Assembly: GCF_022376445.1 (NCBI RefSeq)
Contig: NW_025955005.1
Span: forward strand, 1 to 64,000
DNA length: 64,000 bases
Direction of reading: 5' to 3'
Source of the DNA: Fomitopsis serialis
Lineage: Eukaryota; Basidiomycota; Agaricomycetes; Polyporales; Fomitopsidaceae
Translations under genes and position numbers: made by a program
Notes under the pieces: generated by a model
Database searches by the model: none
The model's input: the letters and a program-made list of their open reading frames with translations, nothing else
Told to the model about the DNA's origin: nothing
Part shown: positions 10,770 through 33,405 of the stretch, one piece after another
Numbering within the stretch: the stretch's first letter is position 1
Layout of the letters: every line of letters starts with the position of its first letter

Positions 10770-12610
10770 TCAAGGATTGGGCCGCCTCAACCCTGAAATC
10801 AGTACCATGGACTCAATAACGGTCAAACCTGCGAGCTTTTGAAGGTCCTCTTCCAACTTGTCTTTGCGACTCTCCGAGATGAAGTCTCGCGTAGCGTCGA
10901 TCATGGCCCCATTCTTCAACCCGATGCGCTCTAGCTTGCTGGCATACACCTCTGGCGACAGCCTCAGAGATTCGAGATACCGCCTGACGTCAGGATCTAC
11001 GTTTTGATGGATGGCAGATAATGGGTCTGAAGGAGCCACTGGAATCGAAGACTCGCCACCAGCCGCGCGTGATGACGAGGAAACCTTGCTGTTATTTCCT
11101 ACGACAGGAGGAGATTTCTGGCGTAGCATCATCGGCCTGCCTGATGATGACCAGACGAAGGTGTCGGCGACAAAGGTCTCCAGTTGCTCTGATTGCGAGG
11201 ATGGCGCGGATGTGCCCATACCCGGGCCGACATTACCAGAGACCTGTCCATCCGCGTTAAGACTTAATGCTCCACTCTTCTAAGGCCAAACAATGCCTGC
11301 ACTCACTGCAGTAGACGGCCTCGGGGTGGCCACATTGTTGTCACCATTTGGGCGTTGTTCTTTAGTTGATTGAGAGGTTGAGGGATTGGACGTTATACCC
11401 GGCGCGCGAACGTCTTGGGGAGACGAAGGTGAAGAGGACATAGTCTCTAGGATGGATTTCGACGTAGACGCAGTCTGCGGCAGCACTTCAGATGAGGTGA
11501 TTGGCGGTCCAGCAACAGAGCGAGACATTGCATCTTTGGAGTGTCGCGACGAATTTTGTATTGGCGCAACAGCGCCATCAGATTCCGATTTGAGGCGCTT
11601 CAGACTCGGCTGCACAGGGTACTCTCTGTGTAACGATCAAGGTCAGATACCGCGTCAGAAATACGGGGGAGACATACCCATCGGGGACAGTGTGTCCAAC
11701 GTTCTTCCTCTTTGAAGAGGTGCGGTGCACTCCACCGGGAATGGGAGGCTCTGAGTTGACTGGTTGAGAGACAGGACGGTCTGAGAAGGGCAGCAGAGGC
11801 TCCTCGAGAGGTTCCAGCTGCGGTTGAGGCGACGACGGCCCAAGAATGGGCGGAAGGCGGGGACGTGAGGGTCCACTAAAGTCACGAGGTTCGGGCAACT
11901 TTTTGACCTGCCGGACAGCTGTTGGGTCCACATCTGGCATGCCAATGGGAGGGAGGCGGGGACGCCCAGGGCCGGACCAATCGATATATTCACGCAGACC
12001 CGTGATGGGTGGTGCAGGTTTAAGAATTGGCTCAAGGCGCGGACGTCCGGCATAGTCCAGAGCTTTAGGCGGCGCTCCGGCCTCTCCTACGGCAGTTGTG
12101 TCCAGCTTTGCACCAATGCGACCCAAGCGCAAGCGTACAGGTCCAACGTGGTCGGGAGCTTGGTCGGGAGCGTCAGGTTTTCCCAATTCCATGGATCTCG
12201 TCCGCCGGCGACCAGTCATTGAGATGGATCGTAACTTGTCGTCCACTACTATGACATTTACTGTATGTTGGACATATGCTAGCTCTTGAACCCGAGTAAC
12301 GACTCACCCAGTCTTTTGTGACTCGCCAAAGAGAAAGTGTACGTCCTGTGTCACCGCACTGAGTCTGGACATGAACTGAGGAGCTTTCGCCAAAGAGGCT
12401 CCGGGTCTCTCGAAGACCGATCGTTTGAATTCCAGTCGCGACTTGTAACTTCAGAAACAAGTACTGGAGCTCCAAAGAAGGAGCCTGAGATAGTAACAAG
12501 GACAGCCAGATGGCAGTTGTGGGCCAGGATGATTCAAGTTCGAGCTGGCAACGTCTCGATTTCCATACTGGGTCTGACAATCTCCGATCCGCTCGAGCTC
12601 CGACGTTCAT
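10770..12610 (-). CDS. Lineage-specific family, copy A (variant N-terminus)
   Basis: Function unknown. The last exon (about 11220-10770) carries the C-terminal domain that defines the family: VDPDVRRYLESLRLSPEVY, then KNGAMIDATRDF, SRKDKLEEDLQKLAGLTV and the SGLRR end. Before it lies a Ser/Thr-rich exon that begins near QPSLKRLKSES. Upstream, copy A differs from its relatives: instead of the helix-turn-helix part it has four spaced repeats of the type GRPRLPPI (at about 12130, 12040, 11960 and 11860), set 80-100 bp apart in a Pro-rich stretch. Introns near 12260-12320, 11640-11695 and 11222-11290 have good GT-AG ends. The first exon (ATG at 12610) is the weakest part of the model. The Pro-rich repeats suggest an SH3- or WW-type ligand, but this is inference. 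Confidence 0.7.
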
Positions 12611-12829
12611 TGACTGACTACTACTAGTAAGTTACTGGGTCATACTGCAATCATACTGTATCCTTCTCCGCATCGACGTTGCACAATGCAACGCGAGGGT
12701 CGGTCCCACTACCGTGCGCGAAATCTAGATCTAAGTACTACTAAGTTACCAGGATGGCAAGTACAGTTGAACATAGATGCAACCTACCGTTTGACTCAAC
12801 TGTGCGTACGAAGTCCAATGGATCATTTC

Positions 12830-15558
12830 TCACCCATTCGCAGGTCGCCTCAATCCTGAGATGAGAATCATAGACTCGGCCACGGTCAACCCCGCCAACT
12901 TCTGGAGATCCTCCTCAAGTTTATCCTTGCGGCTATCGGGGACGAAGTTCTTCGTAGCATTCAGAATGATCCCGTTCTTTAAGCCGACGAGCTCTAGCTT
13001 GCTCGCATAGACCTCCGGCGGCAAGCCCAGCGACTTGACATATTGTGCGACATCAGGATCGATCCCTGTAGGAGCATTGGGCAGTGGATTGGGCAGGATA
13101 GTCTGGGCGGAATGGCTATCGTCGACACTTCCTTGATGCGGGCCTGCGAGGCCAGCTCCATTCCCTCCTGCGATGAGAGTCGGGGTTGCCCCTTTCACTG
13201 GAGCTGACAATCTCAAACCACTGGGCTCATGCCCTCTAGAGGATCCCCGCTGGTTCGCATCGGAAGGTGACGGCGACAGCACAGGCCGCTTGTGGGCAGA
13301 GGCAACATCGCAAGACGTCTCTTCATCCACACAGTTGGCCGAGTCCAGGCTCTGCCGGACAGCGCTCACTGTGCTTGGTGTAGCTCCGGAAGGGGGTGTC
13401 GCCATCCTGAAATTGCTGTAGGTCTGTGGATGTTCGGTGTCCATCATTGAGACAACTTTCCGGACTCGTGAAGCGTCACAGTGGCTGCCGTGGTCGGTCG
13501 GAGGCGAGGGTAGTTCGACCTCCAGCTTGCGACTGCGTGTAGAGCTGCTGACTCGGATCTGAGGGATTTTGCCGAGTGCGCCAGCACTGGAACGGGGAGA
13601 GGTCACAGCCACATCTGATACCTGTGCTGACGTCCTCGAGACGTCTGGCGCGAATTTGGTGCGCTTGGGCTCTAACTTCCCAGAGCGTTGCCTGAAGAAA
13701 GAACATTAGTTCTGTCGCATCCGTTTTTCGGCGCAAGTCATGACTCACTGCTCATCTGCGCATTCGCCGTCTTCGCCAATTTCACGTTTCCTCTTCGTCA
13801 GAGACACTTGACTACCATCAGGCACGAGTCGAGATTGCTGCATTGGTCGCGGTTCAAGTGAATTGGGTGAAGAACGAGGCAGGGGCTGCCTTACTAGGGT
13901 CTCAACGTGCGGGGCTGTACTGGTCGCCCTGTCTACGAGCAGAGCGCGTTTGATTGGCAGCGCACGCCGCGAAAGAGCGAATTCGAGTACCCTATGTTGT
14001 GAATGGAGTTTCAGAGGTGTTTCTGGTGACAGCCTGCTGTCGAGCAATGGGGTCGGGAAACGGGGCGACGCAGATGGTTTGCGTATGAACCGGGGTGGCT
14101 CGAGGGAGCGCTGAGATGCTACACCTATAGACGTACTCGGCGATGAACCGGATTGCGTCAACGGTGCTTGGGAAACCGGCAAATGCGCTGTCTGGAGTGG
14201 GAGCAAAGGTTGAGATCGTACTTGCATAATTTTGGGTTCAGCACTGCCGTTCGCAGAGCCCCCTGGTTCGGCTACCATCTCACGCGCAACTGGCGATTCC
14301 TCGAGGGTTCCCGCAACAGCAACAGCCAGAGGTACTGACTGGCGACGTGGACTCCGTGCGTCAGTTGGTGTGGGCGTGGCTCTCCGTGCGTCGATGGTGT
14401 TGAGCACCACACCTGTCTCGGCGTCCATTTGCAAGGCGAATTGTGCGTGAGAATGCCTCCGGGCCCCTCTGCACGGCAATTGTAAACTTCAGTTGAGTCG
14501 GAAGACCATGTAGCAGCCTCTTACCTTGCTGTACGAACACCTTTCATCTTCGCCTTTTCGGTCTGTGAACCGGTAGTCAAGATTTTGGATTTGATGATGC
14601 CGCTTATGTTAGCGCGAGACTGCTCTCGCGGTTCTTGCTTCTCATTTGGAGTGCATGACACTAATGGTGACAGCGAGCGCGGGGAGTTGATGGGGGTTAA
14701 TGGGGACAGTGAGCGCGAAAAGTCGACGGGAGAACTGAGGTGAGATAAGGGGGACAGAGGGGATAATGAGTGAGGAGAGTGGGGGGACCTGTCGTCCAGA
14801 TCAGCTTTCCTAGTGGTCATGCTCTTCAAGTCGTTGACAGACCTGGCGGCAACATAGCAAGTGAGCCAGAACTTGGTGCAGGGCGTGGTGCTGGATTGCT
14901 TCGACGACCCTCAGACCGTCCTGTAATCGCCATTGTGAAGCGACGACGACATCGAAGGACAATGTCCGGTGAGAGTGATGTTTGCACGTCTTCAGCGACG
15001 CAACAATTGTTAGTGCACATCGAGAGATATCCAGAAATCAGAATCGAACGTACATGGTGGTGCTTCATGGCGAAGTCTTGCAGACACCCTCCTCTCGAAC
15101 AGACTGTCATATCCGGACCCAGGTTCCTTGTAATCCGAGTTTTCGTCGGCTTCTTCGCTCGAAGTTCCAACCTCATCGTCATCACTATCCTCCTCCTCCT
15201 TAGTCATGCAATCCCTGGTGTGGGCACTCGTGGTCGCCAAGCCTCCCGCGGGCACTGCAGCTGCATCAAAGGAATCAACATCGGTGACCACCGCATCCCA
15301 CATCTTCAGATATGTGGTGTCTTCATCGAGGTCGTCGCGGCCACGTTCGTTTGCACAGATGCGGTGCACAGACCGGCGAGAGCAGTTGAGAAATTTAGCA
15401 ATCTGCTTGAAAGACGCATGTTGCTCGTTGCGCATTCGCCTAATGACGGCACGCCTTACGCGGTCAATCTGCATCCTGTGTCTCGATGGTAAGACCAGTG
15501 AGAGCGCCCGCCGCCAGATGATCCTAGAGCCATCATCGAGGGGAGCACTCATCAGCAT
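12830..15558 (-). CDS. Lineage-specific family, copy B (HTH to SAM-like)
   Basis: Function unknown; probably a nuclear DNA-binding protein. Exon 1 (from ATG 15558, with a second ATG at about 15474 just before IDRVRR) encodes a basic helix-turn-helix-like segment: IDRVRRAVIRRMRN, FKQIAKFLNCSRRSVHRIC. An acidic stretch (EEEDSDDDEVGTSSEEADE) and RRVSARLRHEAP follow. A phase-1 intron with donor GTACGT at about 15050 leads to a QTSLSPDIVLRCRRR block. The next parts are Ser/Pro-rich (SPLSPLSHLSSP), then LEFALSRRALP, SLTKRKR and ECADE, then EPKRTKFAPD. The last exon (13612-12830) ends in the conserved domain DPDVAQYVKSLGLPPEVY through AGLTVAESMILISGLRR. A frame change near 14826 fits a 49 bp intron. 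It is one of four head-to-tail minus-strand members. Confidence 0.78.
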
Positions 15559-15892
15559 AGCTTATGGTAGTCAAAGACGGGAAATCGAACATACCGGTGT
15601 TTTTGGTTCGTATTGAGGAAGGGGCGTCTACACGCTATATCTGCATGCGGGCCCAATGCGGACCTAAAGGGAATAGGCATTCTTTTTCGGGGCCTTCTTT
15701 ACATAGAGCACGAGTTGCTCAGAGCGCAAGCTCAAGCCCACTATTGCTATTGCGTCCGAATCGATTGATAAGTACATCACAATATTCACCGTGACGCCCG
15801 TAGACGAGACAATCTGGGAGTGGCAAGCACGATTGAATGTCAATATGGAAGCAATCAACTCGAATTATGCGCCAGTGTGAATGTGCACATTT

Positions 15893-18615
15893 TCAGGACC
15901 CACTCGCCGATCGCCGCAATCCTGAGATGAGAATCATAGACTCGGCCACGGTCAACCCCGCCAGCTTCTGGAGATCCTCCTCAAGTTTATCCTTGCGGCT
16001 CTCGGGGACGAAATTCTTCGTGGCGTTCAAGATGGTCGCATTCTTCAGCCCAACCAGCTCCAGCTTGCCTGCATATACCTCCGCAGGCAAGCCCAACGAT
16101 TCGACATAGCGTATGACATCAGGATCTATTCCTGCGAGAGTGTTGGGTTGTGGATTGGAAGGCGCAGTTTGAGCCAGTCCATGGCTACCACCGACGCTCG
16201 CCTGTTGCGAGCCTGCGAGGCCTACTCCGTCTCCTACGACGGCAGATGATGGGGCCGTCTCCACAGTCTCGCTGCTGGGCACTCTGCTAGAAGAATTCGG
16301 CTGGTCCAGGTGGGAAGATGACCGTGACGAGGATGGAGCAGATACCTTGCTCGCCGAGGTCGCCGAGGCGACATAACAGAGACTCGGAGCCCCTCTGTTT
16401 TGATCTGCACCGTTCATTGACGGCGCGCTTTGCTGAGAAATGTTCGCGCTCGGTGCAACAAGAGGGATCATGGCCGTAATTGCAGCGTTGCTGTGTGGCT
16501 GGGGACGCTCGGCATCCATGAAGGAGATATCCTTAGGCGACGCGTACCTACCGTGGTCGATTGGAAGCGAAGTTGGTACGAACTCTAGCCTGCAATCGGG
16601 CATGGAGCCGCCGACCTGAGAATCGGCGGTGAGTGCCTCAGGCTGAGCTGGTGCATCGGCACTAGAACGGGGAGGCCTAGGGACAACAGAATCTGAGGTT
16701 TGGATTAACGGCTTCGAGGCGTCTGACGCGAGAAGTTTCGCGCGCTTTGGTTCTTGTTCCCCGGAGTGTTGCCTGCAGTTTCGAGAGACGTCAGTTTCGT
16801 CGCACCAGTTGTGCAGTACATCACACGTCAAACGACTCACTCGTCTATGCGTACGCCGTCTTCACTAAGAGTGTGTTTCCTCTTTGTCAGAGACGCTTGG
16901 CGACCAACGTCGGACACTCGAGGTTGCACTACTGGTGGGCTTTCGGGTGGTCTGGGCGAAGGACGACGCGGTGGCTGTTTCGTCTCACTGTGCGTCCGGT
17001 CTATGAATGAGCTGAGCCTGGATGGCAGTGCACGTCGTGACAGGGTGAGCTCGAGTGTCCTTCGTGGATGAGGCGGCTGTGGTGACGACGGCAAGTCGTC
17101 GAGAATTATGATCGAAGAACTGGGCGAGATTGACGGAGACAGTTGGCGCAGTGACCAGACTGGCCTGCGCGGAAGCTGCGACACTGTTTTTCTGGCAGTC
17201 GGTAGCGGATGGGATATCGATGCTCGAGAAGTCCTTGGGAGGGGTAAAAGTGGCGGTTTTGTCTCCGTAATACGGGGTTCAGCGCCACCATTGGCGTCCC
17301 ACGAGCGCGATGGCTCAGCCCTAACTTTAGGTCCGTCTGCAGTAGTACCTTTGGCGATGGAAGGCTCACAGGCGCCAGTGGCCGGATTCGCCGGCTGTAT
17401 ATGCCTCTGACTTGATGCCGGCTGCTCCCCTCTGTGTAGCAACTATGAGTTCAGTCGTGTTTAACAGCCAGGGAGCCGCTTACCCTGCTGTATGATCGCT
17501 CAAAATGCTGGCATGAAGGGTTCCGCCTTTCGCCTTCGGGTTGTCAATCCGTGGGTGTGTAGGTACCACCGACCTCCCTCCGGATACATCAGGTGTTGTT
17601 CGCCTTCCCTGCGGTCTTGCGTCCGTAGCCGACTCAGATTGAGGATCAGAGGTCCCCAACCCGAAGGGACTCAGATATTCTCGCTGCTCAGGTCGAGGCG
17701 GAGGTGAGATTGGTGATAATGAACGTGGGGAGACGCTAGGCGATAGCGGAGACAGCGGAGACAGTGAGCGAGACAGCGAAGACTCGGAATTGTTCGAAGC
17801 CGATGGTGTCAGTGGGTGTGAAACAGATGTGTCTTCCTCCTGATCAGCTTCCACGGAAGCGGTGCTGTTGCTGACGGACCCTGTGCCTCGCTGCAGCAAA
17901 ACATTAGTTAAGGCGGAATTCGGCGAGGAGCCTGAGGTCACTTTGATTCGAAGGCCCTCAGGTTGTCCCATGGACATCGCCGTGTTCAAGCGATGCCGAG
18001 TTCGCAGGACAATGTTGGGCGAAGACGACGTCCGTACATCTGCAGTGGCAGATTGTCAGAACACATCAAGACCCATGTAGAAATCGGGATGGATGTACAC
18101 GGTGCTGCTTCATGTCGGAGAAGCCCTGCGGGAACCCTCCTCTCGACCGGAACGTCGCACTCGGATCCGAGATCCTCATACTTTGAATCTTCATTACGCA
18201 GATACTCAGATTTTTCACTAGAAGTTGCGAGTTTGAGAGGATCCCTATCCCCGTGTTCTGTAGTTGCACGGCCTCTGGCGTGTGTATACGTCAGCACCTG
18301 ACCAGTCCGGGATAGAGCTCTGACTGAGGCGTCATGGAAGGAATCGTTGTTGGGAACAGTCGCATCCCACTCCTTCAGATATTCAGTGTCTTCTTCCAGG
18401 TCGTCTCCGTGCTCGTTTTTACAGACGCGACGTATAGACCGACGAGAGCACCTGAGGGACCTTGAAACCTTGACATGGCGCCAGGCGAGCTCGTTGCACA
18501 TGCGCCGAATGGCTGCACGCCTTGTGCGGTCGATTTGCTCATGCGGCATCCTGATGTGGTCCGGAAGCTCAGGCCAATGAGACGGACCACCGCCATTTGG
18601 ATTGGGGACCATCAA
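15893..18615 (-). CDS. Lineage-specific family, copy C (HTH to SAM-like)
   Basis: The cleanest full-length member. Exon 1 from ATG 18615 reads IDRTRRAAIRRMCNE, then LRCSRRSIRRVCKNEHGDDL with EDTEYLKEWDATV: a helix-turn-helix-like unit followed by an acidic linker. RRVPAGLLRHEAAP precedes the same phase-1 intron seen in copies B and D (donor GTACAT near 18100, acceptor CTGCAG near 18046), leading to VRTSSSPNIVLRTRHR. The Ser/Pro exon (SLSPLSPLSPSVSPRSLSP) comes next, then a long disordered exon at 17442-16840 with LTLSRRALP and SLTKRKH, then EPKRAKLLASD. The last exon ends with DPDVIRYVESLGLPAEVY through AESMILISGLRR. Very low-complexity, Ser/Pro-rich middle and short basic clusters suggest a nuclear, largely disordered protein with folded ends. 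No catalytic residues are evident. Confidence 0.8.
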
Positions 18616-19074
18616 CAGGGGAACACGGTTTGCGCCTTGTAAACAACTCGACTGTCCATGTCAGGACTTTCGACGTTCAGACTCGGAGGACTGAGAGCTG
18701 TCATGCAGTGGTACATACCGTTTTGAGGTTGTCTTCGGGTACTACTCAGTGACGGCCGCCAGGCATCTCATCCAGTTGCGTGCGTTAGCGTGAGGTAGTC
18801 TCCGAGCAGAGTTGACGATCCTTTCCGTTGCGCGAGAACGGGAACGAGAACGCGCTCCGGATCCGAGGCCGAGGTCGGGTACATAGTAATAACGTGACAG
18901 AGTAAATACTGCGGCACGGTGACTTAATATATCATAGTGATAGTATCGTAGCGGCGCAAGCGCCGATCCCCGACTCCTGCATGGCACACAGCTACTCAGC
19001 CTGCCACAGCAGCACCATAGTATATTATGTGTGTATTGTAATATTGTACCATCGGAATGGTATGGAGACTCAAT

Positions 19075-19127
19075 TGGAAGCCCTCACGCCCGCGGCGGCT
19101 TCGCCGCCCGGGCGTCTCGGGCTTCCA
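19075..19127. repeat. Long near-perfect hairpin
   Basis: Arms TGGAAGCCC / GGGCTTCCA, ACGCCCG / CGGGCGT and GGCGGC / GCCGCC pair in order around a TTC loop. That is 22 base pairs with only small asymmetric bulges. It sits between family copies C and E and outside any coding model. Confidence 0.9.
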
Positions 19128-19596
19128 CGAGTCTGAGCTAAGTACACGGTGAACTTACTTACCATAATACATAAGCACTACAGTGCATGCGAGGGCTCCC
19201 AACGTAATAGAGGCCCTCTTGCCTTTGGGAGGAGTTATTTGGTGGTCAAAGATCCAGACGTCCAGACGCAGCCAGATGCGCGGTCGGATCCAACTGCCTC
19301 GAGCTGCCTCGTAAGACACTCGAGCATTGCTGCGATACCGCTTATGGGAATTTTAAGTCACGTGTTTCCCACGGAGGGAGCGGCATCGCCGGCTGCGAAC
19401 GACTTATGGTCGACAAAGCCCTCCTCTCCCTCCGGTCGGAGTCGGGGATTACTGCGTCGCGCCTGCCCCGGCCAATACGTCCGATATGCACACATAGAAT
19501 GCTACCACCCACCAGCCCGAAGCTTCGGCGGACGGCGATGCTACGCGACAACGGACACGAATACATAGACCAGACCTTCGCATGTAATGTCTACAT

Positions 19597-19609
19597 AGGG
19601 CTTCGCCCT
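19597..19609. repeat. Short hairpin with same loop
   Basis: AGGGC-TTC-GCCCT, a 5 bp stem with the same TTC loop as the longer hairpin 470 bp to the left. Confidence 0.6.
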
Positions 19610-19837
19610 CAGTGACAATAAAGGGAACCAACAACAAAAAAAGAATGCTACCGGAAATACTACAACCATACTCTGCTTAACTTACCTACAAGGGACATCA
19701 GCCATCAGAGGAGGAGGAGGGGATTCCATTTAGTCATCACTTTCGCGCACCATAAGGCTCGCCACGCATGACAATCAGAGGAGACGCAGGGGTAATTCAA
19801 TAGGAACAAGCTACCGGGATTAATTCAGCAGTACTAG

Positions 19838-21810
19838 CTACTCATGTTGCCGCCTCAAGCCCGAGATCAATACCATAGCCTCGACGACCGTCACCCCTGC
19901 ACGCCTCTGAAGTTCCTCCTCTGATTTGTCCTTTCGGCTCTCCGGAACCAATCTCTTCATCGCCGTGATTAGGGCGCCCGTGTTGAGGCCGATGGAGTTG
20001 AGCTTGATAACGTACTTCTCCGGAGGCAGGCCAAGCGATCGCAGGTACTGTATCACAGCGGGATCTACATTGTCGAGCGTAGCGTCAGGAATTTTACGTT
20101 GGGTGGTGGCAGAAGACGCAGGTGCATGAGTAACAGTATTGACAGTTTGGACCCGGAGACCGGCATTGGTGCCCCTTCCGAGCAATGCCTGGATTGCGGC
20201 ATCCAGCAGTCCTGGGGACGTCGCGGGTCCTTTGTCGCCAAACTGAGCATGATTTGAGGTTGACAAGTCTCGGACGTCACCAACCGGCAGAGCATTGGGA
20301 TCCTGAGACCCGGCATCCGCACCTCGCGGTTGGTCATTTACATCGGCGCGAAGCTGAGCATTCCGAAGGGGGCCCGCCCTTGTCGCCTGCGGCGAGCTCG
20401 CTACGGGCATCGAGCTGCTAGGTGCCTGCGTCAATGTGGTGTCCGACCGAAGGACTTCTTCCCGTTATGAATCATCTCTTGGTCGCGAGGAAGGCAAGAT
20501 CTTCTGCGTACCTTTTGAGAAGCGCGGAGCAGGCCGATCGCAGTGCGTCTCTGTGGCTTTTTCTGCAGTGGCAAGCTGGGAATGCGCGGGCGCTGAAGCC
20601 TCAGTCTCCCGAGGTGCGTTCTGCTCGAGACCGAGACTGTTCCTCGTGGTAAAGGTAGCGGGTCCGAGCTTGGCCCGTTTGGCCCACTGTGTCGAAGTCA
20701 CACTATAAGAGACATGTCAATTTATGAGTAGCTGACCGCGGTCATAACAGTTATGGCGACGTACGCATCCGTGCATATGCCAATGTCAGTCGGGCATCGC
20801 TGTCCCTCTTCACAGGCGTGATCCGTAGGTGTGGCACGCGATCTCAGGTTCCGTCTGGGGAGCTCTAGGAGGACCCGAGGTGCAAGCTTGGCTATCTCTG
20901 AGCATTGGTTGTTAGTAGCAGAAAGCGAGCCTGTATCGGATTCCTGTTGGTCTTGGCTCTTGTCCATGATAGCAGCAGAGGTCGTAGCCGTAGGCAGTGA
21001 GTTTGGGCGCGTCGCATATCCGGTATTGCGAGGCGCACGTTTTTGAGATGCCCGCCGCTTCGTGTGCTTGCGGGCGGCACGTATCACGACGTCGGAAGAC
21101 AGAGACGTGCGCACATCTGCAGAACGATTATCATCAGCACAAGCTTGCTATAGTCCATACGTACAAGGGAACGAAACTAACATGGCGCCTTCTCCCTTCG
21201 CAGTCTTGCTGAAATCCTTGCACGATGAATAACGGACAGAGGCAAGTCGTGCTCCGAGTCGGAGCTATCATCGGGCTGAAACTCGCTGACTTGGCTGGTG
21301 CTAGTCTCGCTGCTGTCAGAAAGGGTCTCTCCAAACTCGATCTCGGATTCCGTGCGCCACATATGTGCCATAACAATTTCGGTGGCGCCGCCGTCAGGTT
21401 CGCTGTCACCGCCAGCCTGAGGCTGAGCTTGTCGCGCATCATCCATGTCCATTCTTGCACTTCCTCCTTCACTTCTTCGCTCCCTGGCGCTCCTGTTGTG
21501 CCAGGGCTCGAGCTTGAGCCGCCACAACCTCCGCGTTATCAAACGTGTCGACATCGGTCACCGCCTCCCACCCTTGAGGTGCTTCCCATCTTCGCTGAGG
21601 TCATCGCCATGGCCGTTCGCCACGGCCAATCGAGCTTCACGGCAAGAGCACCGATGAATGTGGCAATCTCCTTGTAAGTGACGTGCTGCCTGTGGCGCAT
21701 GTCCCGGATGACGGCGCGTTGGTGCGTCTTTGGGATGGTCTGCGAGGATGCATGCCTGCCAGGGTTCGTGCGGAAACGTTCTTGAACGGTCGACGTACGG
21801 TGGTGTCATA
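19838..21810 (-). pseudogene. Lineage-specific family, copy E (frameshifted)
   Basis: A diverged member. The last exon (20434-19838) has an intact C-terminal domain: VDPAVIQYLRSLGLPPEKY, then SRKDKSEEELQRRAGVTVV and ISGLRRQHE. The exon RTSLSSDVVIRAARKH (near 21110) and the segment RISARLRREKAPC (near 21180) match the other copies around the shared intron. The N-terminal helix-turn-helix unit is readable (RAVIRDMRHRQHVTYKEIATFI, split here: RAVIRDMRH and TYKEIATFI) but continues as GCSCREARLAVANGHGDDL only after a one-base shift near 21645. A second one-base shift near 21570 is needed to reach AVTDVDTFDNAEV. Both sites are next to G runs. It is either a decaying copy or a gene hit by consensus errors. 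Confidence 0.7.
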
Positions 21811-22726
21811 TATGAGAGACCGAATATTGTTGCGAGCTAGCGTGATTTCGGTGAGCGCCCACTCGCTATAGAGGATCAGAAGATATACCGTGGGTGGACC
21901 TCTAAAACATAACAACACGGCCTTGGCGACTGCGGATCTGGCACGCACCAGATGTCAACGGCTTCAAGGCTATCACGGCAGTGCTTTCCTTTGTTGCAGG
22001 GTCGCGGTGCAATAGGTCTTGCTCACTGCCGATAGCTTGAGCAGTTGAGCAGGCCGTTGGCATCTATGGCGAGACGCTCAGGTCCAGAAAGTCATGCGTA
22101 CAGACTGACGGATGCAGAATCGGAACGATGTGGTAAGAGATCATGGTGTGAGACGATCTCGGCAGGCATACTGAAAAAGGCCAATTTGCCAGCAGGTGGA
22201 TATACTACGGCCATGCTACGTCAACGCAGTACACGAACTTGAATGATCAGGCACTCACCAACGTCGGTGAATGGTACGTCGGCATGTGAACATGACGCGA
22301 TGGACCAATGATGTTGGGACTACAGCGCTGTGAATTGAGAAGTCATTGGCGGACGAGGCTTACCACGCGCAGAACAGAGTTACGTTCGGACGCCAGCGAC
22401 ATGGAACAATCCGAGTGCATTCTGCCAGAACCCATTAGAATATGCAGTGTCCGTTAGATGAGATGGTTACGAGTACAATAACGAGATGCCGGTATAGAGT
22501 CACGGCTAAAAGAGACGAGGGCGAGAGCGAGACAATAAAATGGTATGGCTACAAATTCGAACGCAGGCGCTGGGATGTCAAGTGGTGCGTAGATGCAAGA
22601 GATATGGGAGTGAACTGTAATGGGCATGTGGATGACTGAAAGATGTGCAACGTGTCGTGGATGCGGAACGTGAGCGGTGTATGGTCATTGTCAATGGGTC
22701 GTTGGACCCGTCGTGGCGGACCTCTC
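21811..22726. other. No supported gene
   Basis: Upstream DNA of copy E; no feature that I can support. Confidence 0.45.
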
Positions 22727-23087
22727 CTACGAGCGGCCTTTAGTGTTGACGTTGATGGCGGATTCTCTCCCGCCCATCCTCTCGACGGCTGGCGAGTCCG
22801 GCGCCGTCGCCTCGTCTATGATCGCCTTCGCCCGCGGGACGTGCGCCTGCGCACGGATCCTCGCGGAGCTCTCCCTCCTTCACTTCCTCTGTATGAACTT
22901 CTTGCCGTGCCCGAGCTGGCCTGGCCACCAGACTGCACGTTCGCTGTGCGAAGGTGCGAGGGCCGCGTACATTGCGTGCCCGTCTCGCGGCGACTGGTGG
23001 AAGGACGAGAACGCGTGCGGGGAAGCGGGCCGTGGGGAAGAAGCTCGCGATTGGCGACGACGGCGGCGACGTGTAGTTCGACGACAT
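22727..23087 (-). CDS. Hypothetical protein with in-frame TGA
   Basis: I do not recognise a family. From ATG 23087 the frame reads MSSNYTSPPSSPIASFFPTA, then shifts by one near 23030 to a protein-like stretch SPRDGHAMYAALAPSHSE, WWPGQLGHGKKFIQRK. It then meets a TGA, and the same frame goes on to RAQAHVPRAKAIIDEATAP and ERMGGRESAINVNT before the TAG at 22727. The downstream part is amphipathic and clearly protein-like, so I think a gene is present but damaged or miscalled. A plus-strand open frame across the same DNA is Arg-rich and less convincing. Confidence 0.4.
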
Positions 23088-24164
23088 GGCGGGCTCGGAG
23101 GGCGTAGGGAATAGATCAGAGGCCGATGGTGCACGTCGACCCGGTAGTCGTTACGCGGTGGAGGAGAGTGGCCTCGAGTCGAGAGCGGCAGGGCGGCGAC
23201 AATGTCGAGGCGGGCCAACCAGGCTGGAAGGGCTTGAGGGAGACACAACGCATTCTTGTTCTCTGTTTATATGGTTGCTAGCGGTTGCGCTGGGATCAGG
23301 CTCGAAGAAGGGCTGCCATTCCGGGAGCAGAGTACAAGGGATCGTCCAAATGCAGATGCGCTTCTCAAGCTCCGCGACACTGACTTGCCATATCTGGATG
23401 AAGGGAGCGGCTCAAATTAGTTGGTCGGGCGCAAGACGCATCTCTCGAGCACCAGCCGACCATGGGGCACGAGCGGCCTGACGTACGAGCGCGCGCGTGC
23501 GGTGTGATGCAGCGCGGGCGTCGTAGTGGAAGTCCAGGCATCAAAGGCAAGGGGAGGGAGCCCCTCGCGAGCTGAGGATCGCGTAAGCGCTCAAGCGATG
23601 TGGCGCGGCACCAGTCCCACACTCTCCCAGAGCGTTATATGAACGTTGTTCTCTACTGACTCGGAGATGTGGCTTTACGTACAACCTTATACCGGCAGAT
23701 GTGCAATTCGCCTCGAGGAGTAGTACGGAATGATGACTTTCCTTCCAGAACGGCGACACGCAGGCCCCGTGGCATTGACCAGCCCTCCCAAGTTTCAGCA
23801 GAACATATGTTTCATTGCACATGCGATACATGGATGCGGATTGCGAACGACGATGCGGGAAGTGATGACTGTACTGTACTACGACGAGGGTTCAAGATTA
23901 GCACCTGACATGGACGTCCGTGATGCGAGGCGACTACGATGCGGATATCAAACGGGATAGCTTAGAAGGCTCGAGGAGAGAAGAGAGCGTAAGATGGAAA
24001 CCACAGAAAACAGCAAACAGACAGACCGAGTGCAGCGAATGAATAGTCCAGAAATCCGACGGTATAATGATACGGTCAACACTCGGACTGGAAGTAAAGA
24101 GAACCACCGACGACGTAAAAATATCACCACCATACGTGCGGCACGGTACCGCGCCTCACCTCGC
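23088..24164. other. Intergenic, no supported gene
   Basis: It lies between the hypothetical gene and the 3' end of the TBC gene. GC-rich on the left and AT-richer near 24,000; nothing recognised. Confidence 0.45.
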
Positions 24165-26432
24165 CTAGAGCAGCGCTGAGTTCTGCTGGCCTGACTCGAC
24201 TAGTCGTTGCCAGTCCGCCCGCCACTGCCGCATACTCGAGCGGAGCTTCTTGTCAGCAACCACCTTCTCGACCCACGACAGAAGCGCGTTCTCGTCCTCA
24301 GGGACGAAGAAAGATGACAGCAGCGACAACACCGTCTCAAAACTTGCCGAGGCAGACGTGATGTGATCTAGCCCGAGACAATAAGCACGGAGCGCCGTCA
24401 CGAAATTTAATTACGCAGACTCACCCCTATGTATCCACACAATCGCCACAGCGACCACCACGAATATGTCGTGCCCCTCCAGGAGAAACGCATCCCATAA
24501 TCGCAGCTGCGTCTGGAACGGCACCGAGTTGGCGAATAGCGTGATATACCACTTGGTCGCATACGACGTCGTCGAGATCATGTGCTTCTTGAACGCGGCG
24601 TACACCGGGGGCAGCAGCTGCTCCATCATCCGCTCCTGCACGTATATCGCCTCGAGCAGGCCTGGAAACCCGGGGCTGAAGATCGTGTGCATTTGGTAGG
24701 CGTCGTGTAGGCGCACGAGTGACGCGTATACACGCTCGGGCTCGAAATAACAGAGAAGGGTCGCCGCAATTGGCCCCATGCCTTGACAATACCCGCAGGT
24801 TTCGCAGTGTAATGAAAACGAGTGGAGGACATGGAACAGTGACCTTTGCCTACATTCGCGGTTAGTATGCACAGTCAACACACATGCGCTAGAACCCACC
24901 CTTGACCGTATCGCGTGCGGAACATGACATGGCCACTAATCGTCCGCGGCACATCCAGGTCGATCTGCACATCATACGTCGAAGGCCGATCGAGAGCTTC
25001 TCTATACTCTCCTGAGAGCCTTCGAGTCTCTGCCTTGCCATGCCGTGAGAACCTGCACATCAGCGTGTCCCATGCCGCGCTCCGCCAGCAGTCCGGGATC
25101 CCCTTGAACGTCCGCTCCCGCAACTTGTGCTCCTTCGACGACCGCACACCCCACGCCTCGATGTTGGACCCAGGATCGCGCTCCCGCGCCTCGAGCATCC
25201 GCGACCACTTCGCCACGCGCGACTTCTCCTTCGGCTGGAGTGGCAGCGACAGCTGGGACGGCAACAGCGGTGGGCTCGCAGGCCCGCTCGTGTTAGCCGA
25301 GCTGAGTCGCGCGAGAGGCTTCAGCAGCGGGGCGGCGTGCAGCAGTATGCACCGGTCATGAGAAGGTGTCACGTAGAAACCATAGCTGTGTTTGTGTCAG
25401 ACGTGTGCGGCGATAAGCAAGACATGGCACTGGTACGCACCGGTCGAGGCTCGCGAGCATGCCCACCTCCTGCGGCGTGAGCTCACGCGTCTTCTCGTGC
25501 GCGTCCGCAAGCGCCTCCTGTGCCCGCAGCTCGCTCGCGCGGCTGCCCCCGACCCGTGCGCGCGTCCGCTCTACGCCCTCCTCGTACCCATCGCCGCGCA
25601 CGCCGCATACGTCCAGCTGCGCATAGGTCGAGCGCACGTGGAATGCATCCGGGTCTTCGTCCGGTGCAGGGGTGATTGATGCCGCACTTGATGGTGAGCT
25701 GGGAGAAGACGGGAGGTGGGGCGGAGATGACCGTGGGGGCGTTGCGGCGAGGGAGAGCGCTTGTGGGGGCGGTGTGGAAGCGGGCGTGAGATGCGGAGAG
25801 GATGACCGAGGTCGGGTGGTAGGCGAGGTGGGTTGACTGGATGACGGTCGACTGTTTGGCACAGATAGAGAGGCATAGGACAGTACCCGAGGAGTGCCGT
25901 CGCTGGCAGTAGCGTAACTAGATGTACTCCGACTGTTTGAGGCCGAGGGTTGTGCAGAGCCGTTGGAGAGATGGCGCGCGTCAGTGTAAGACGTCTTTGA
26001 CGAGCGCGCCTGACTTGACGGGGGCCGCTCGGCGTAGGCAAGCTGGACGGATCCGTTAGAGACGACGGACTGCCGTGCCTTTTCAACGATGCTCGCCCGC
26101 TTGAAGGTGTCCTGTTCGAAGTATGCGCTGTCCTCGACCGGCCTACTCCACCGTGGTGTCGTGCTTCTGCGGTCGACACCCAAGACAGCGACGTCGACTG
26201 CTGTGTCCTTGCCGGGGTGGAGCACGGACGGGGAGGCAGACCAGCTGCCTTCGTCCTCCTCGTACATAGAATATATCGTGACGATGGTCGTTTCGGAGGA
26301 GGCGCGTTCGCGACTGGAATCGTCGACGGAGAGGTCAGGCGTCGTCGCAGCCGAGGAGACCGGGGGCGAGACAGGCGGCCGTGAAGGGTCGAGAGGGGTT
26401 GGAGGTACGACAAGGACCGACGGGGAGTCCAT
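24165..26432 (-). CDS. TBC-domain Rab GTPase-activating protein
   Basis: A Rab-GAP that would switch off a Rab GTPase in membrane traffic. The ATG at 26432 starts MDSPSVLVVPPTP and a Ser/Pro/Thr-rich disordered region of about 330 residues. The TBC domain begins near KLRERTFKGIPDCWRSAAW. It carries both catalytic fingers: IDLDVPRT (IxxDxxR, near 24950) and CGYCQGMG (YxQ, near 24780). FANSVPFQTQLRLWDAFLLEG and DIFVVVAVAIVWIH follow. Three introns (near 25385-25445, 24848-24904 and 24370-24425) splice in phase, and the gene is intact at about 700 residues with a stop at 24165. It diverges from the ING gene over a gap of about 425 bp. Confidence 0.93.
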
Positions 26433-26858
26433 GAAGAATGAAGGTAGAATGAAAGAAAGGTGAGGAAGAGCAGAGACTGGTGCGCAAGACTCCACACAGC
26501 CGCCGTCCTTCACTGGCGGGGGCGATCAATCAATATGCTTTCTTTGGACACGCTCGTCGTCCACTGCAGTGAGCAGCCCGTGCCCACCGTATCACGAAGA
26601 TGGGAAGGTACTCGCTGGCCGTCGCGGGAGAGTGACGGTAGTGGACAAACCAGCAAAGTCGCACGTCGCACCGTCACGGTGACCGGGGAGGACAATACCC
26701 ATATCGGGCAATTCCCGATTCAGCTGGCCACGTGGTACTACGGCGCACGTGCCCAACCTTAATTCCTCATGGGCGTCTAGTTCACCGCGAAGGGACCCTG
26801 CAGCACGGCCATTTGACGGTCGTCCTCTATCGTTTTGTCCCGCCCTCACCAGGCGACC

Positions 26859-28272
26859 ATGTCTCGTCGCGCACCCAACGCGTCCTCTTCCAACGCCGTG
26901 GCCACCGCTCACTCCCTTGTCATCCTCGGCGAGTATACCCACACACTCGACTCTCTCCCGCTCGACCTCTCCCGCAACTTTGCCGAGTTTCGCGAGCTTG
27001 ATGCTGTCCTATCTGCCTCGATGACATCCTTGACCGCCAAGATCACCCAACTCACCAACATGCTCGAAACCAACGTTGGGTCCAAGGAGGAACGCCTGTG
27101 GCTGCTGGCCGACATCGCAGAGGAAGCCACCCGCCTCAAGCTCGGCAGCGAGGACAAGATACGCGTTGCTTGTCATGCTGCAGACGGCCTCCGTGGTCAC
27201 AAGTCGCATATGAAAGCCCTCCTGCAGAACGTTCCAGACCGCGACTTCGATAGCATCGATGCACTCTGCCGGAAGACGGTCTACCCTCATGTGGCGCCTT
27301 ACTCTACCTCATTGCAAGGCGGCCTCGGAGAAGGGCGCCGACAGAGAAGAGGAGCGTATGGGAGTTTGCTTGCGAGCGGCTCAGTGGACGCAAGCCCAGC
27401 GAAGCGGAAGAGGGCAGCGGGGAGAGATGATGAGTCGGAGGCGGTGGGCAAGACGCCGAGGAAAGAGAGGAATGCTGACGCTGGACGGCAGCGCAATGGT
27501 CCGAGAAGCAAACGGTACGCTCACAACAAAGTCAGAGCAGCATCTATTTTCTAACAAACCGCACTGAAAGGCCCGATCGTGCCGCTTCACCCGCTGAATC
27601 CCTGATGTCGGTGGCCTCGCACTTGCCACCGAGCGCGCAAATCTTGGGCGCTCCTCACCCTCGCCAGAATGCCCCCTCTCGCTCGGGTAACGGCAATGCA
27701 GCCAACAAACGCTCTCGTGCAGCGCAAAACCATGAACACCATGCCTCGACACCAGTTGACCAAGTACACGAGATGTATGTCCCACCTCCCTCAGCCTCCG
27801 CTGCACACCCTTCTCTTCCGAACCCGTTCGCGCACACTCTGAACGGGATGGGCGAGTGGACGCCCGGCCAGCTGGAGGGCCCTGGGATGCCAGTTGCCCG
27901 CAATTTCGTCAACACCTCTGCTGTTGTAGTCGACGAGAACGAGGGCGCTGTTGCACCTGCTGGGGAAGGCGAGGGCGAGGGCGATGACGGCAAGACGTAT
28001 TGTGTGTGCAATGGTGTCAGTTACGGAGAGATGATCGCGTGTGACGATGCTAGCTGTGATACTGAATGGGTGAGTGCGCTTAATGCGATGCTTGCTCAAT
28101 TTGCTGATGATTTGCGTCAGTTCCACCTCATGTGCGTGGCCTCCAAATACCACCAGTTGGAGAGTGGTACTGCGAGACATGTCGGGGCAAACGCAACGGC
28201 CGCCGAGCAGGCCGCGGTGGAAAGAAGAAGGCTGGCGGTGGTCGTTCAAATGCTCGGAACACTTCGTCCTAA
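26859..28272 (+). CDS. ING-family PHD-finger chromatin protein
   Basis: A reader of H3K4 methylation in a histone acetyltransferase or deacetylase complex (Yng/Pho23 type). The ATG at 26859 is followed by the ING N-terminal helices: VILGEYTHTLDSLPLDLSRNF, here LGEYTHTLDSLPLDLSRNF, and IAEEATRLKLGSEDKI. Introns are at 27515-27570 (donor GTACGC, branch CTAAC) and 28070-28120. A basic, disordered middle has PAKRKRAAGR and PRKERN. The C-terminal PHD finger gives YCVCNGVSYGEMIACDD, CDTEWFHLMCV and, after a shift of one base near 28137-28140, EWYCETC and a Gly/Lys-rich tail ending at 28272. As written, GTGGCC lacks one G needed to keep the finger in frame; otherwise the last Cys pair is lost and a stop comes at 28291. 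I favour a missing base. Confidence 0.9.
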
Positions 28273-28734
28273 CATGTACCGAGCAAGTTGATACGGTGGG
28301 TGAGGTCATATTCGCGTAACGCGTTCAGGTCTGGACGCTGATACCTCGTCGCAGATGTGTTGTACGTATACCAGCGCTGGATGTACTCTAGAATCATTCT
28401 TCTTCCTTACCTGGATCCGCTCTTTCCCTCAAGACGATTTCGATATCACTTACTTGACTTGCCGAGATTGTCCCTCTGAGACTCAGGAGAGTTGCTAGTT
28501 GACAATTGGTGGGTGTGTGCTTCGTGTTCTGTCTGTCTTGGAACGCGTCCGGAAGCGCCCGTGCGATCGTGTACGCGACAATCACGTGTTAGTTCGATTA
28601 CCGAATGTAGCGCGTTGCTCGCCGCGACGCTGCTCCCGACCATAACATACCCGCTGCGGGGTTTCTCGCCGTCTGCTGCTTGTCTCTTGCCTTCATCATC
28701 TCTGGTCAAATCAACCTCTCTGATACGCTGCCCT

Positions 28735-29560
28735 ATGAGCTTAACGACTTGTGACGATATTATCCATGTTGTACCTCCGGAAGTCTGGCTCCATATATGT
28801 CCGCAGTTCTTGTCTAGCTATACTATTGACGTGCTCACAATAGTGTTTTAAGTCTCATTCCTGGATCTTCCAGAGCTCGCCAGCGTTGCTCGTGTCTCTT
28901 GCGTCCTCGCGTGCTATGCCGAAGACCCCGTACTGCACCATCACCGCCTCCATGTAGTCGCGCCCTCTCGTGTGTCGCACTCCCTGTTCGGACAGAATTC
29001 GGAGGGTACACCCTTGCGGCCAACGGTCAGCGACCTAGTGCATCGCGGGATCATGCGCGGCCTTGGAATAGAACGACGGTGGAGAGCGGGAATGTACTTT
29101 TACTCGCAGCACGTATGTCGCCCACGACCTCTCCAGGTTGTCTGCAAGCCAGATGCTCACCATGTACCTTCTGTTTCTTCAGATGGTTGCACAGTACGAG
29201 GTCTCCCTCCGCCTCCAGCGCACGCACGCGGGCAACATCGTAGAGTCCGCCCTGCGGCGACGCTCTCCCACTAGCCTCTTCCATGTCTACTCCGCGCGCG
29301 TCCTCCCAGACGAGCTCTCCTCCGCGGCGATCTCGCCGTCACTCATCCCTGCCATGCGCAAGCTGAAGTGGTCCATCCAGCGCGACCGCCTCGCGAAGCT
29401 CGTCAAGGCGCGCAGCGAGATGGTACGGAACGGCGGCGCCGTGGCGTGGCTCGAGGACAGGGGCAAGGCAGTCATGCGGAGGGAGAACGAGCGCGTGCGC
29501 TTGGCTCTGTGCCCCGGGATTGGAGGAATCGTGAGGTTTTATGAGAACCTCGGTCACTGA
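28735..29560 (+). CDS. F-box protein
   Basis: An F-box protein, the substrate adaptor of an SCF ubiquitin ligase. The ATG at 28735 leads to the F-box: VPPEVWLHI, an intron at 28799-28852, then FSFLDLPELASVARVSCV and YAEDPVLHHHRL. The C-terminal part is a fungal extension of unknown fold: LRPTVSDLVHRGIMRGLGIE, FYSQH, an intron at 29113-29182, then MVAQYEVSLRLQRTH and KLKWSIQRDRLAKLVKARS. Both introns splice in phase and nothing is broken. Length is about 233 residues. The substrate is unknown. Confidence 0.82.
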
Positions 29561-29949
29561 TGAGACTGTAGGAATGTGTATGGACGAGGGACATGAAACG
29601 GTAGGCTTTTTATACCTCTATGTGAAGGACTGTATGTGGACTAGTGTATGCTGTTTTCACGGCCGGTTCTACGTTGGATGTCCGGCAACGGGTCCTACGA
29701 CCACTGTATGTTTGAACAGTCACCGGCTTTGTTTCATGAACAGCCTGAAACTGTGAAGGTTTTGTACAATCCACACCTACGAGTACACGTATACACCCTA
29801 TTGAATCGTCTTAGAGATGACAGTGGTGTCCAGGAGTTTATCCGCTGGTTAGTCGAGCTATGCTATCAATGACGCCTTGCCTTGATGCAGTTGTTCTAGG
29901 GTACTTGGACTGGATGCTTCGTGAGTTCCATAACTTTAACACCCGCGTA

Positions 29950-30687
29950 CCATCTCATGCTCCGAAATTCGCAGATCTCTTGGGTTCTGGGGCCACTGGC
30001 ATACACTCGGCGAGACTGCGCGGGGATGAGTGCCATGTCTGTATCCTATCTCTGGTACGTCTCAATTTCCGCAGATTCAGGGTTAATGGCAGATGTACAC
30101 ACGTCGTCATCCGCGCTGCCCCCGAGCCAAAGTGGGCGAAATGGCGGCTTTTGAGATGTCGTACGTCGCAAGGCCATGGCGACAACTTCTGCTGTCGTCA
30201 GCCAAAATCAGCAAGGAGGTAATCCAGGCCTGCTTTCCGCTTTTAAGTCAAGCAGAGCTCGGAGACTCCCAGTTCTCTACCTCAAGCACGACCCCAGCTT
30301 CCCCGGTGGAGGCTGAGATCGTGTGTCACACCATTGCCCGTCCCACGGATCACGCCTGTGAAGAGGAGTGATGCCTGGCTGACACGTAGGTCACCGTAAG
30401 CTAGTAACGGAAGGCCACCAATAAGTTGACACGCGCTTCTTACAGTGACACTTCGACGCAGTGGTACAAAGGAGCCAAGCTTCGGCAAAGGCCTGCTACG
30501 TTTATACCGAGGAACAATCTTGAGCAAGACGCACTGCAATCATCGCTTGGCCTGCTTTCAGAAAAGTCAGCTAGCACACTCAGCGCCCAACTGTACGGCC
30601 TGCCCGTGAACAAAGGCGCCTGGCCAGGCGGGATTGACGATCGTCGAGGCGACGGCGTTGATATCGGGTTTGAGGCGACAAAGGTAG
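29950..30687 (+). pseudogene. Lineage-specific family, copy F (relic)
   Basis: A decayed member closest to copy E. Pieces in order: VVIRAAPEPK (near 30105, matching VVIRAARKH of E), PTDHACEEE (near 30348, matching PTDHACEEG of E), DTSTQWYKGAKLRQRPATF (near 30450, matching STQWAKRAKLGPATF of E), and then directly the last ~20 residues of the C-terminal domain, GLTIVEATALISGLRRQR, ending in TAG at 30687. Most of the C-terminal domain is deleted and the pieces lie in different frames. No N-terminal helix-turn-helix part is visible. Confidence 0.78.
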
Positions 30688-31177
30688 CATGGCCGCGGCA
30701 GACCGCGATTCAATGTCAGAAGGCGGGTTGTTCTCGAGACGAGTATCGACAATGCAAAGCACGGCGCGATCTACGGAAGTACTAAGTTGCCTACTTGCTT
30801 GGTACTTACTGCGCACAGAGTTGCGCCGCGTCGCGGAGTCAAGCGGGCTATAAGTGGTCGGTCACGTTCACGCCTTCGACCTCAAGGTCTCAAGATCTCA
30901 CGCCTCTGCATGCGATTAGGATCGAGACACATTCCACCTAGCATAAGCTGACAGTCGTCACACAAACTCAAGACGAATCCAAAACTTGATCTGTACCACC
31001 GTGTACGTGCCAGTGTTAGCTATCTCGAGCTCCTGAAGTTCAAACCTGTAATCGTTGACTACTTAGCTTAGATCAGAAGCGGTGTTACGGTGAGGAGTGC
31101 CACCCCTTATTGATGATCAGGTTTAACTGAGTACTTATAGACCGCCTCACTGACCTCACCACCGGGACGATATCGGG
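30688..31177. other. Intergenic between copies F and D
   Basis: No gene seen. It should hold the promoter of copy D. Confidence 0.5.
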
Positions 31178-33405
31178 ATGCGAATTGACCGCGTCAGGCG
31201 CGCTGCCATCCGGCGAATGCGCAACGAGCAACAAGCTCCAGTCAAAAAATTGCTAGATTTTTTAACTGCTCTATCCGGTCTGTGCGGCGCATCTGTGCAA
31301 ACGAACGTGGCCTCGACGATCTCGGTGAAGATCCCAACTTTCTGGAGAAATGGGACGCAACTGTCACCAACGTCGATTCATCCGATGCAGTCGGATCTCC
31401 GCCGTGGGCAGGTCTGGCGACAATGGATGCGCGTATTTGGGATGACACGCTCAAAGAAGAGGACAGCGATGATGTTGATCTTGGAGCTTCCAGCGAGGAA
31501 GCCGAGTCTCAGGCTGATGAAGATCCGGATTACAGGGAATCTGGATTCGACCGCAACGGTGACTTGGTTAGCAGGAGGGTATCTGCAAGGCTTCGCGCTG
31601 AGGCAGCACCGTGTACAGTCAACCTCCTTACTGTATGCTTCCCAACGTGCACTGACATTGATTGCAAACGCAGATGTGCGAACCTCGCTATCACCGGACA
31701 TTGTCCTTCGAGCTCGTCATCGCACAATGAAAGCGACGACTACAGGAGGATGTGAGCCTGAGGACCGTCGAGGTAAACCAACCTCACGGCCCGCACCTGA
31801 TCCTGTCAGTGGCTCAAGTATGGGAACGACGATGGTTTCCATTGCCACTGACATCGCCACAAACGAACCCGGCGACACACGCAGCGAACTCGCTCCAGCT
31901 GACGCCCAGAGTCCGAGTCACCAGTCAGCTCCTGCACCTGGCACTGTCGCGCAATCGCTGAAAGTGGTTACGGACGAGATCGGGGCCACACCAGCAAGCC
32001 AAGCGAACAGCATTGATGCTGGGCCCGAACTTACGGAAGCACGACCTCTGCCATTGCCGCTACCACGGAGGCGTTTTTCGCTCACTCGACCGTCGTTGAC
32101 ACAGCCGCATCCCCCACCGAGCACGTCAAAAGACGCAGTGACCCAGCACTCGCCCGAGCTACCCCGGCTTATATGCAAACCCCTCTCTTCGCCTGTGTTG
32201 CCCCGTCCCTCGACCACGTTGCTCGATAACGAGCCGTTACCACAGATTTCCCTCGCACAACCTGGATCACAGAAACAGGAAGTAGAGTCCACTCTTGCTT
32301 TCAAGCACAGCCCACTCGTAGACAGGGCAACCAGTACAGTCTTGTCTGTCAAGACGAAGTCGCCTCTGCCTCGTTCTTTGCCCAGCCTGGCACCCCAAGG
32401 CCCACCAGTAGTACCGCAGCCTCGAGTGTCCAATAATGGACAAGCGTCCCCGACAAAGAGGAAGCTTGTGCGTAGCGAAGGCAGTGAATGCGCAGATGAG
32501 TGAGTTATTAGGCGTATGCTGCGCTACGCATTCTCTGATGACATTCAAGTAGGCAGCACTCAAGGGAGCAGGAGCCAAAGCGCGCGAAACTCGCGCCAGA
32601 TGGCATGAAGATGTCGATACAAGCTTCTAATATTGCTGTAGACCCTCCCCATTATAAGGCTGATGCGCAAATAGTTCAGGTGCGCGTTCCGGACTATCAG
32701 GTTGGTGGCTCGACACACAGTCGCAAACCGGAAGTTGTACCACCCGCGCCTTCGACCGACCACAGCAGCCACCGCATCGCACCGCTTAAGGACAATCTTC
32801 CCCCGAAGAATTCCCAAATCTACAGCGACGTTGGAATGGCCACATCCCCATCCGGTACACGGAGCATGAGTCTTGTTCAGCAAAGTGTAGGCGTGCCAGA
32901 GCGGCAGGCTTCTTGCGATGTCGCCTCCAAGACGGCCCGCACTGGGGTGCCGGTCCCATCGCCGTCACCTCTTCCAAAGAAGCCGAATTCCAGTGAAGGT
33001 GAATCCGATGGCCTGACACCATCGGGTTTAGTGAGAGCGACGGCCGCGATGTCTCTCGTCGTAAAAGGAGACGGAGTTAATGGCCTCGCAGACCCGCATC
33101 AAGCAAGTGCTGGCGATAGCCATCTCGCTCAAACCACTCCTTCGAGCCAATTTCCTACTGCCATCGCAGGAGTAGATCCTGACGTCGCACGGTATATCCA
33201 ATCGTTGGGCTGGGATCCCGAGGTTTATGCCAGCAAGCTGGAGTGCATCGGATTGAAGAATGGGGCCATGATCAATGCTACGAGAAACCTCGTCTCGGAG
33301 AGCCGCAAAGACAAATTAGAGGAGGATCTGCAAAGGCTTGCAGGTCTGACTGTTGTGGAGTCTATGATACTGGTTTCAGGATTGAGGCGACAAGGTGATT
33401 CTTGA
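31178..33405 (+). CDS. Lineage-specific family, copy D (HTH to SAM-like)
   Basis: The plus-strand full-length member. It starts MRIDRVRRAAIRRMRNEQ, continues IARFFNCSIRSVRRIC after a one-base shift in the A6 run near 31244, and then ANERGLDDL, EKWDATVTNVDS, the acidic EEDSDDVDLGASSEEAES, and RRVSARLRAEAAP. The shared phase-1 intron (about 31612-31673, donor GTACAG) leads to VRTSLSPDIVLRARHR. A long Ser/Pro/Thr-rich exon to 32503 ends with SPTKRKLVRSEGSECADE. After an intron, EPKRAKLAPDG opens the last part, which ends in DPDVARYIQSLGWDPEVY, KNGAMINATRNLVSES, LEEDLQRLAGLTVV and LVSGLRRQGDS, with the stop at 33405. The break at the A run looks like one missing A, because everything downstream is intact. 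Copies A, B, C and E point the other way, 9 kb away. Confidence 0.78.

Follow-up and report, generated by a model that had tools for sequence, protein, structure and literature searches.

A clustered gene family of Fomitopsis serialis combining a helix-turn-helix-type head with a SAM-like tail: candidate self-associating nuclear regulators

Introduction

Proteins that join DNA binding to self-association are known among the animal ETS factors. In the excerpted text of PMC6226293, Yan is a DNA-binding protein that is made effective by self-association, and in that of PMC3355116 the SAM-only partners Mae and TEL2-SAM damp ETS factors. For the CP2 superfamily, the excerpted text of PMC3348937 states that fungal CP2 proteins lack the SAM domain and that the known basidiomycete genomes lack CP2. 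Here we describe a clustered gene family of the polypore Fomitopsis serialis, located in the first 64 kb (the window, meaning the whole stretch analysed) of contig C390 (290,018 bases) in an assembly of 66.2 Mb and 806 contigs. Its members combine an N-terminal helix-turn-helix (HTH)-type head, a long linker and a conserved C-terminal tail. We tentatively propose, with somewhat less than even confidence, that they are tandem, fast-evolving nuclear DNA-binding regulators of Fomitopsidaceae that would self-associate through their tails, with a headless copy as a possible modulator.

Results

Copies and gene structure

The complete layout is seen in copy C, a single protein of 825 residues encoded in frame across three introns of 59, 52 and 68 nt. 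A full tail of 72 residues was found by tblastn in five window copies, A, B, C and E on the minus strand and D on the plus strand. The initial annotation had counted six copies sharing a conserved last-exon domain, which holds for these five, whereas copy F is a relic of fragmented E-like DNA that retains only the last 19 residues of the tail. The family comprises the following features, with coordinates in the window:

10773..12219, minus: copy A, headless gene, public model P0004 (420 residues); exons 12219-11677, 11624-11301, 11237-11154, 11081-10773
10782..11003, minus: tail of A (tblastn)
12833..15474, minus: copy B, public model P0001 (693 residues); exons 15474-15055, 14658-14524, 14467-13895, 13837-13748, 13690-12833, approximate at split codons
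15250..15474, minus: HTH head of B (HTH_23, 24.9 bits for 15229-15474)
12833..13066, minus: tail of B (tblastn)
15893..18549, minus: copy C, in-frame gene of 825 residues; exons 18549-18099, 18039-17484, 17431-16841, 16772-15893
18322..18549, minus: HTH-type head of C (scoring under the HTH_23 cut-off)
16736..16747, minus: nuclear-signal-like KRAK of C, residues 542-545 (position computed from the exons)
15896..16132, minus: tail of C (tblastn)
19841..21721, minus: copy E; head pieces at 21721-21526 in different frames, in-frame stop upstream of the tail open reading frame
19841..20071, minus: tail of E (tblastn)
30296..30681, plus: copy F, E-like relic; 19 tail residues left, at 30625-30681
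31178..33402, plus: copy D, public model P0002 (724 residues); exons 31178-32500, 32554-33402; head split between two frames near 31240
33169..33399, plus: tail of D (tblastn)

On inspection of the sequences, the position of the first intron of C also fits B, D and E, and the Rhodofomes roseus protein P0003 reads through this position, as predicted. The spliced layout rests on the three-intron model of C together with this read-through. A named public record for C was not seen among the results of two of our protein searches. The N-terminal head, previously assigned to B, C, D and E alike, is in frame only in B and C, while that of D lies in two frames and that of E in pieces; in copy A tblastn found no head. 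Two of the public models look faulty: that of B (12833-15474) bypasses a frame-shifted stretch of exon 2 by means of a long intron, and that of D (31178-33402) keeps to a frame that departs from the family alignment some 25 residues in.

Searched against the whole genome, the B tail gave seven matches, five within the window and two on contig C101, and the tail of the related protein P0007 gave the same seven and one weak extra (L070, E 0.12). This locus and another reached by a head match (L017, E 0.43) were dismissed, as the surrounding reading frames showed no related layout.

The linker of C consists of 17% serine and 13% proline. A KRxK motif, which we take to be comparable to the c-Myc-type nuclear signal, occurs in six of eight family sequences, and the models of the remaining two begin downstream of it. 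The KRK-type nuclear signals suggested by the initial annotation are thereby supported at the sequence level.

The N-terminal head

The Pfam family HTH_23 (PF13384) has a curated cut-off of 24.6 bits, which was narrowly reached by P0003 (24.7 bits) and by the isolated head of B (24.9 bits); in a search of the genome with this family B scored 25.1 bits. The longer B exon (23.4 bits), C (12.6 bits) and the D fragment (12.3 bits) fell below it. These scores narrowly support a predicted HTH fold for the head, as had been suspected from its sequence pattern. The CENP-B_N family (cut-off 21.2 bits) was not reached by the B head (13.6 bits) or the D fragment (13.0 bits). Angiogenins, the top matches of the head profile among solved structures (E 0.007), were taken as chance.

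A domesticated transposase head had also been considered, and of this idea a weak likeness to IS630-type HTH domains (E 0.013-0.045) could be recovered. Together with the HTH_23 match, it would fit a head taken from a domesticated or still mobile transposase and a family that spread as an element. However, Pfam scans of the copies and their relatives revealed no DDE or other transposase catalytic domain, the copies lie in one tandem cluster and contain introns, and genome searches with three heads gave, above chance, only this family and a pair of genes at C101:392-396 kb. We therefore regard a transposon origin as quite unlikely and retain the reading of the head as the putative DNA-binding part of a regulator.

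Among the 28 HTH_23 matches in the genome, six fall into a cluster at C490:117-177 kb (L035, L037, L041, L045, L048, L049, L071, L072) and three into another at C66:26-62 kb (L042, L043, L047). By inspection, both clusters are CENP-B-like and their HTH is unlike that of the window family.

The C-terminal tail

The tail had been described as SAM-like on its sequence pattern. We compared the seven tails by HHalign with eight SAM domains, six from PDB alignments and two from this genome, a set that includes Vts1, Smaug and the Vts1-like sequence of this genome; this is a test of one family picked in advance and not an open search. The score was 21.2 (P 9e-4), none of 500 column shuffles scored as high, and the reversed comparison gave 12.0. 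Adding the two tails of the C101:392-396 kb pair raised the score to 26.3 (P 7e-5; 0 of 500 shuffles as high, top 22.6), while these two tails alone gave 17.5, a score reached in 3 of 500 shuffles. For five helical control sequences, P was 0.17-0.52.

Several results weigh against a SAM assignment. No SAM family was among the Pfam matches of eight family members at E values up to 10; the matches obtained were HTH families in the full-length P0003 and otherwise matches to single members at E 0.08 or worse. The tail profile found one PDB match at E 1 and none beyond chance. The best column shuffle, at 20.6, came close to the real score, the match is confined to tail residues 1-34, i.e. the first half, and a test with single sequences was weak, with shuffles as high in 13 of 400 cases globally and 66 of 400 locally. 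Because of the restricted match, the weak single-sequence test and the choice of the family beforehand, we call the tail SAM-like rather than SAM, an assignment for which the profile comparison lends modest support. The SAM family PF07647 matched the genome five times, never within the window.

Since Vts1, Smaug and the Vts1-like sequence are among the SAM domains that the tail resembles, it might, like the SAM domains of the first two, be an RNA-binding module, and the proteins might act on RNA. Leaving out any of these three hardly changed the score (20.7-22.4), whereas the largest drops followed the removal of Shank2 (17.7) and tankyrase (19.1). We consider an RNA-binding tail very improbable and favour a tail that may mediate self-association.

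Constraint between copies and differences between alleles

The comparison of copies points to purifying selection on the tail. Between different copies, alleles included, the ratio of nonsynonymous to synonymous substitution rates (dN/dS) of the tail was 0.06-0.25 in 18 of 19 pairs, that of C and the A allele A' being undefined, compared with 0.37-0.45 for the linker part in exon 4. The head gave 0.26-0.40, and synonymous divergence (dS) between copies was often above 1. Both tail and head are under constraint.

The region C101:446-461 kb is collinear with window positions 1-14973. Of the five main blocks, four are 91.6-96.1% identical and one (389 bp) 82.5%, for which reason we take this region, with the alleles A' and B' that it contains, to be the other haplotype. 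For C, E and D, as for the neighbouring ING gene, the assembly yielded a single copy each. The head region of B' (C101:461.7-472.0 kb, in L009 and L010) is interrupted by tandem repeats of about 180 bp and a long terminal repeat (LTR) element, whose 987-bp repeats are 98% identical. Past these insertions, the part that was inspected showed no resemblance to the window.

In the tail, A and A' differ by two synonymous and no nonsynonymous changes, and B and B' by three of each (dN/dS 0.32). In the linkers, dN/dS between alleles is 0.43-0.44 for B and 0.86-1.43, on small counts, for A. In headless A, nonsynonymous changes number none in the tail versus about 34 in the linkers (p 0.002) at equal synonymous rates (p 1.0); for B, tail and linker differ in nonsynonymous (p 0.012) rather than synonymous changes (p 0.12). 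At window positions 11000-11500 and 13000-14000, the linkers immediately upstream of the A and B tails are unusually divergent between alleles, with hardly any change in the tails themselves. Conversion by C or D sequence was considered as a source of this divergence and found unsupported, the site pattern being mixed.

One explanation of these peaks would be that the proteins are haplotype-recognition or nuclear-identity factors, with balancing selection driving the linkers of the two nuclei apart. Per 250 bp, the difference between haplotypes reaches 14.6 and 7.6% upstream of the A tail and 9.2-15.8% across four bins upstream of the B tail, i.e. it peaks in the linkers adjoining both tails, and conversion from C or D does not account for it. 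On the other hand, high values occur in further bins of this stretch too (8.0% at 5750, on 87 bases, 10.8% at 7750 and 9.4% at 14750), the dN/dS of the B linker is not raised, and the comparison covers two haplotypes at one locus. Such a role seems improbable to us, and we read the linkers as fast-evolving parts of putative regulators.

A different explanation starts from the state of the copies. The family could be decaying, with the duplicates of one regulator turning into pseudogenes, at most one or two of them (C and B) active, and the tails still open as the decay is recent. Much of what speaks for this also counts against a set of working regulators: in B, head exon and tail are in frame, but the stretch after the head exon is frame-shifted, each allele carrying its shift in exon 2 at a different place; the head of D is divided between two frames; and that of E is in pieces across frames, with an in-frame stop before the tail open reading frame. 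F as a relic, the broken head of B' and the high dN/dS of the A linkers between alleles (on small counts) also point to decay. A separate weakness of the regulator reading is that the contrast between tail and linkers in A falls to p 0.14 once the linker exon that diverges most is left out. Against decay, none of the five tails has lost its reading frame and all are constrained from copy to copy, with dS often above 1, the A tail is the same in both alleles at the protein level, and errors of assembly could underlie some frame shifts, those of B and D among them. Weighing both sides, we hold a decaying family to be possible but doubtful, and return to clustered regulators, of which single copies may be damaged, as the working interpretation.

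Relatives and a sister pair on C101

Three protein searches at E values up to 10 matched 3 candidates out of 340, 1 out of 1053 and 4 out of 37; besides the family's own members, they recovered P0003 and P0005 of R. roseus as well as P0007. Over the last exon P0005 is 61% identical to P0003 and is for this reason probably a paralog or divergent allele of it. These searches depend on shared words of five residues, and the search with the head recovered its own query alone among the 1053 candidates, missing P0001, which shares the head. The absence of further relatives is therefore weak evidence, and the restriction to a small clade expected beforehand, although consistent with the matches in R. 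roseus and P0007, is not established by searches of this sensitivity. In a tree of the tails only two groupings were resolved, one pairing B and B' and the other the R. roseus proteins, and both stayed below the support mark of the tool.

A weak head match (E 0.007) led to two tandem genes at C101:392-396 kb. In both, an HTH-type head (with a GDDLDED motif in one of them) is followed by a linker and a C-terminal tail comparable in length. Searched back, the head from this locus found B at E 0.015 and C at E 0.094. Between the window family and this pair, the heads align with z 8.6 locally and 7.7 globally (0 of 400 shuffles each), and the tails with z 4.6 globally (0 of 400) and 1.4 locally (31 of 400); in HHalign, the tails gave a local P of 0.046, and 5 of 500 shuffles scored as high globally. 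On these alignments the homology of the heads is solid and that of the tails likely. The order of head, linker and tail is the same as in the window, the tails have strongly diverged, and upstream lies a weak C2H2-like match (E 0.026, below cut-off). We interpret the two genes as an older sister pair that shares its contig with A' and B' and lies about 61 kb from them. Given this earlier cluster of two genes in the same arrangement, the window cluster looks like one branch of a wider family.

Surroundings of the family

Pfam identified the following neighbouring genes in the window, and Rfam gave no matches:

9117-10385: Exo5 nuclease
24411-24935: RabGAP-TBC
26820-27554: ING histone-reader
37786-38589: RING finger
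62467-62937: TPX2

A 279-bp direct repeat at 5061-5339 and 7390-7658 (77% identical) is not part of the family.

Discussion

In the mechanism that we propose, the N-terminal homeodomain-like HTH would bind DNA, and the long Ser/Pro-rich linker with its nuclear-signal-like motif would bring the protein to the nucleus. The C-terminal SAM-like domain may then self-associate, so that DNA-bound molecules could act cooperatively. Headless A, and perhaps E, might bind the same tails and modulate the head-bearing copies, as Mae does Yan. DNA binding, nuclear location, self-association and modulation are all predicted here from sequence. A more specific version, in which B and C bind DNA, a selectively kept tail-only A (possibly also E) caps or poisons their assemblies in an independent Yan/Mae-type circuit, and the haplotype-divergent linkers make the two nuclei of the dikaryon differ, strikes us as unlikely.

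If the general proposal is true, basidiomycetes have evolved HTH-plus-SAM-like regulators of their own, with the kind of layout that animal ETS factors show, at a fast-turning-over locus that seems to retain a headless copy. The analysis provides domain boundaries and gene models for proteins that are publicly annotated as uncharacterized and partly mis-modelled. We found no published description of the family in the literature on the genomes of F. serialis (Neoantrodia serialis) and R. roseus, on HTH and SAM domains in Agaricomycetes, on orphan genes and on SAM polymers, which was covered mostly by title. The component parts are of known kinds, and it is their combination in a basidiomycete that appears undescribed in the literature searched.

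Besides the pair on C101, three known systems invite comparison. Within the same genome, the CENP-B-like cluster on C490 shares an N-terminal HTH and clustered copies with the window family; its genes differ in having another HTH and, by inspection, a second basic domain, while CENP-B_N stays below its cut-off in the window heads. The CP2 superfamily (LSF) has DNA-binding proteins with a SAM oligomerization domain, an arrangement like the one predicted here. No CP2 match was found in Pfam scans of the copies and relatives, and the CP2 route was excluded because of what the excerpted text of PMC3348937 reports on fungal CP2 proteins and basidiomycete genomes. A further likeness is to Yan and TEL1 (ETV6), which in the excerpted accounts (PMC6226293, PMC3355116) have a DNA-binding domain and a self-associating SAM in one protein. 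These ETS factors differ in that no ETS domain was found in the window family, where the HTH_23-type head is N-terminal and the SAM-like domain C-terminal. By the same analogy of layout, headless copy A may be compared to Mae, the SAM-only attenuating partner. The likeness to Yan, TEL1 and Mae is one of layout, not of homology.

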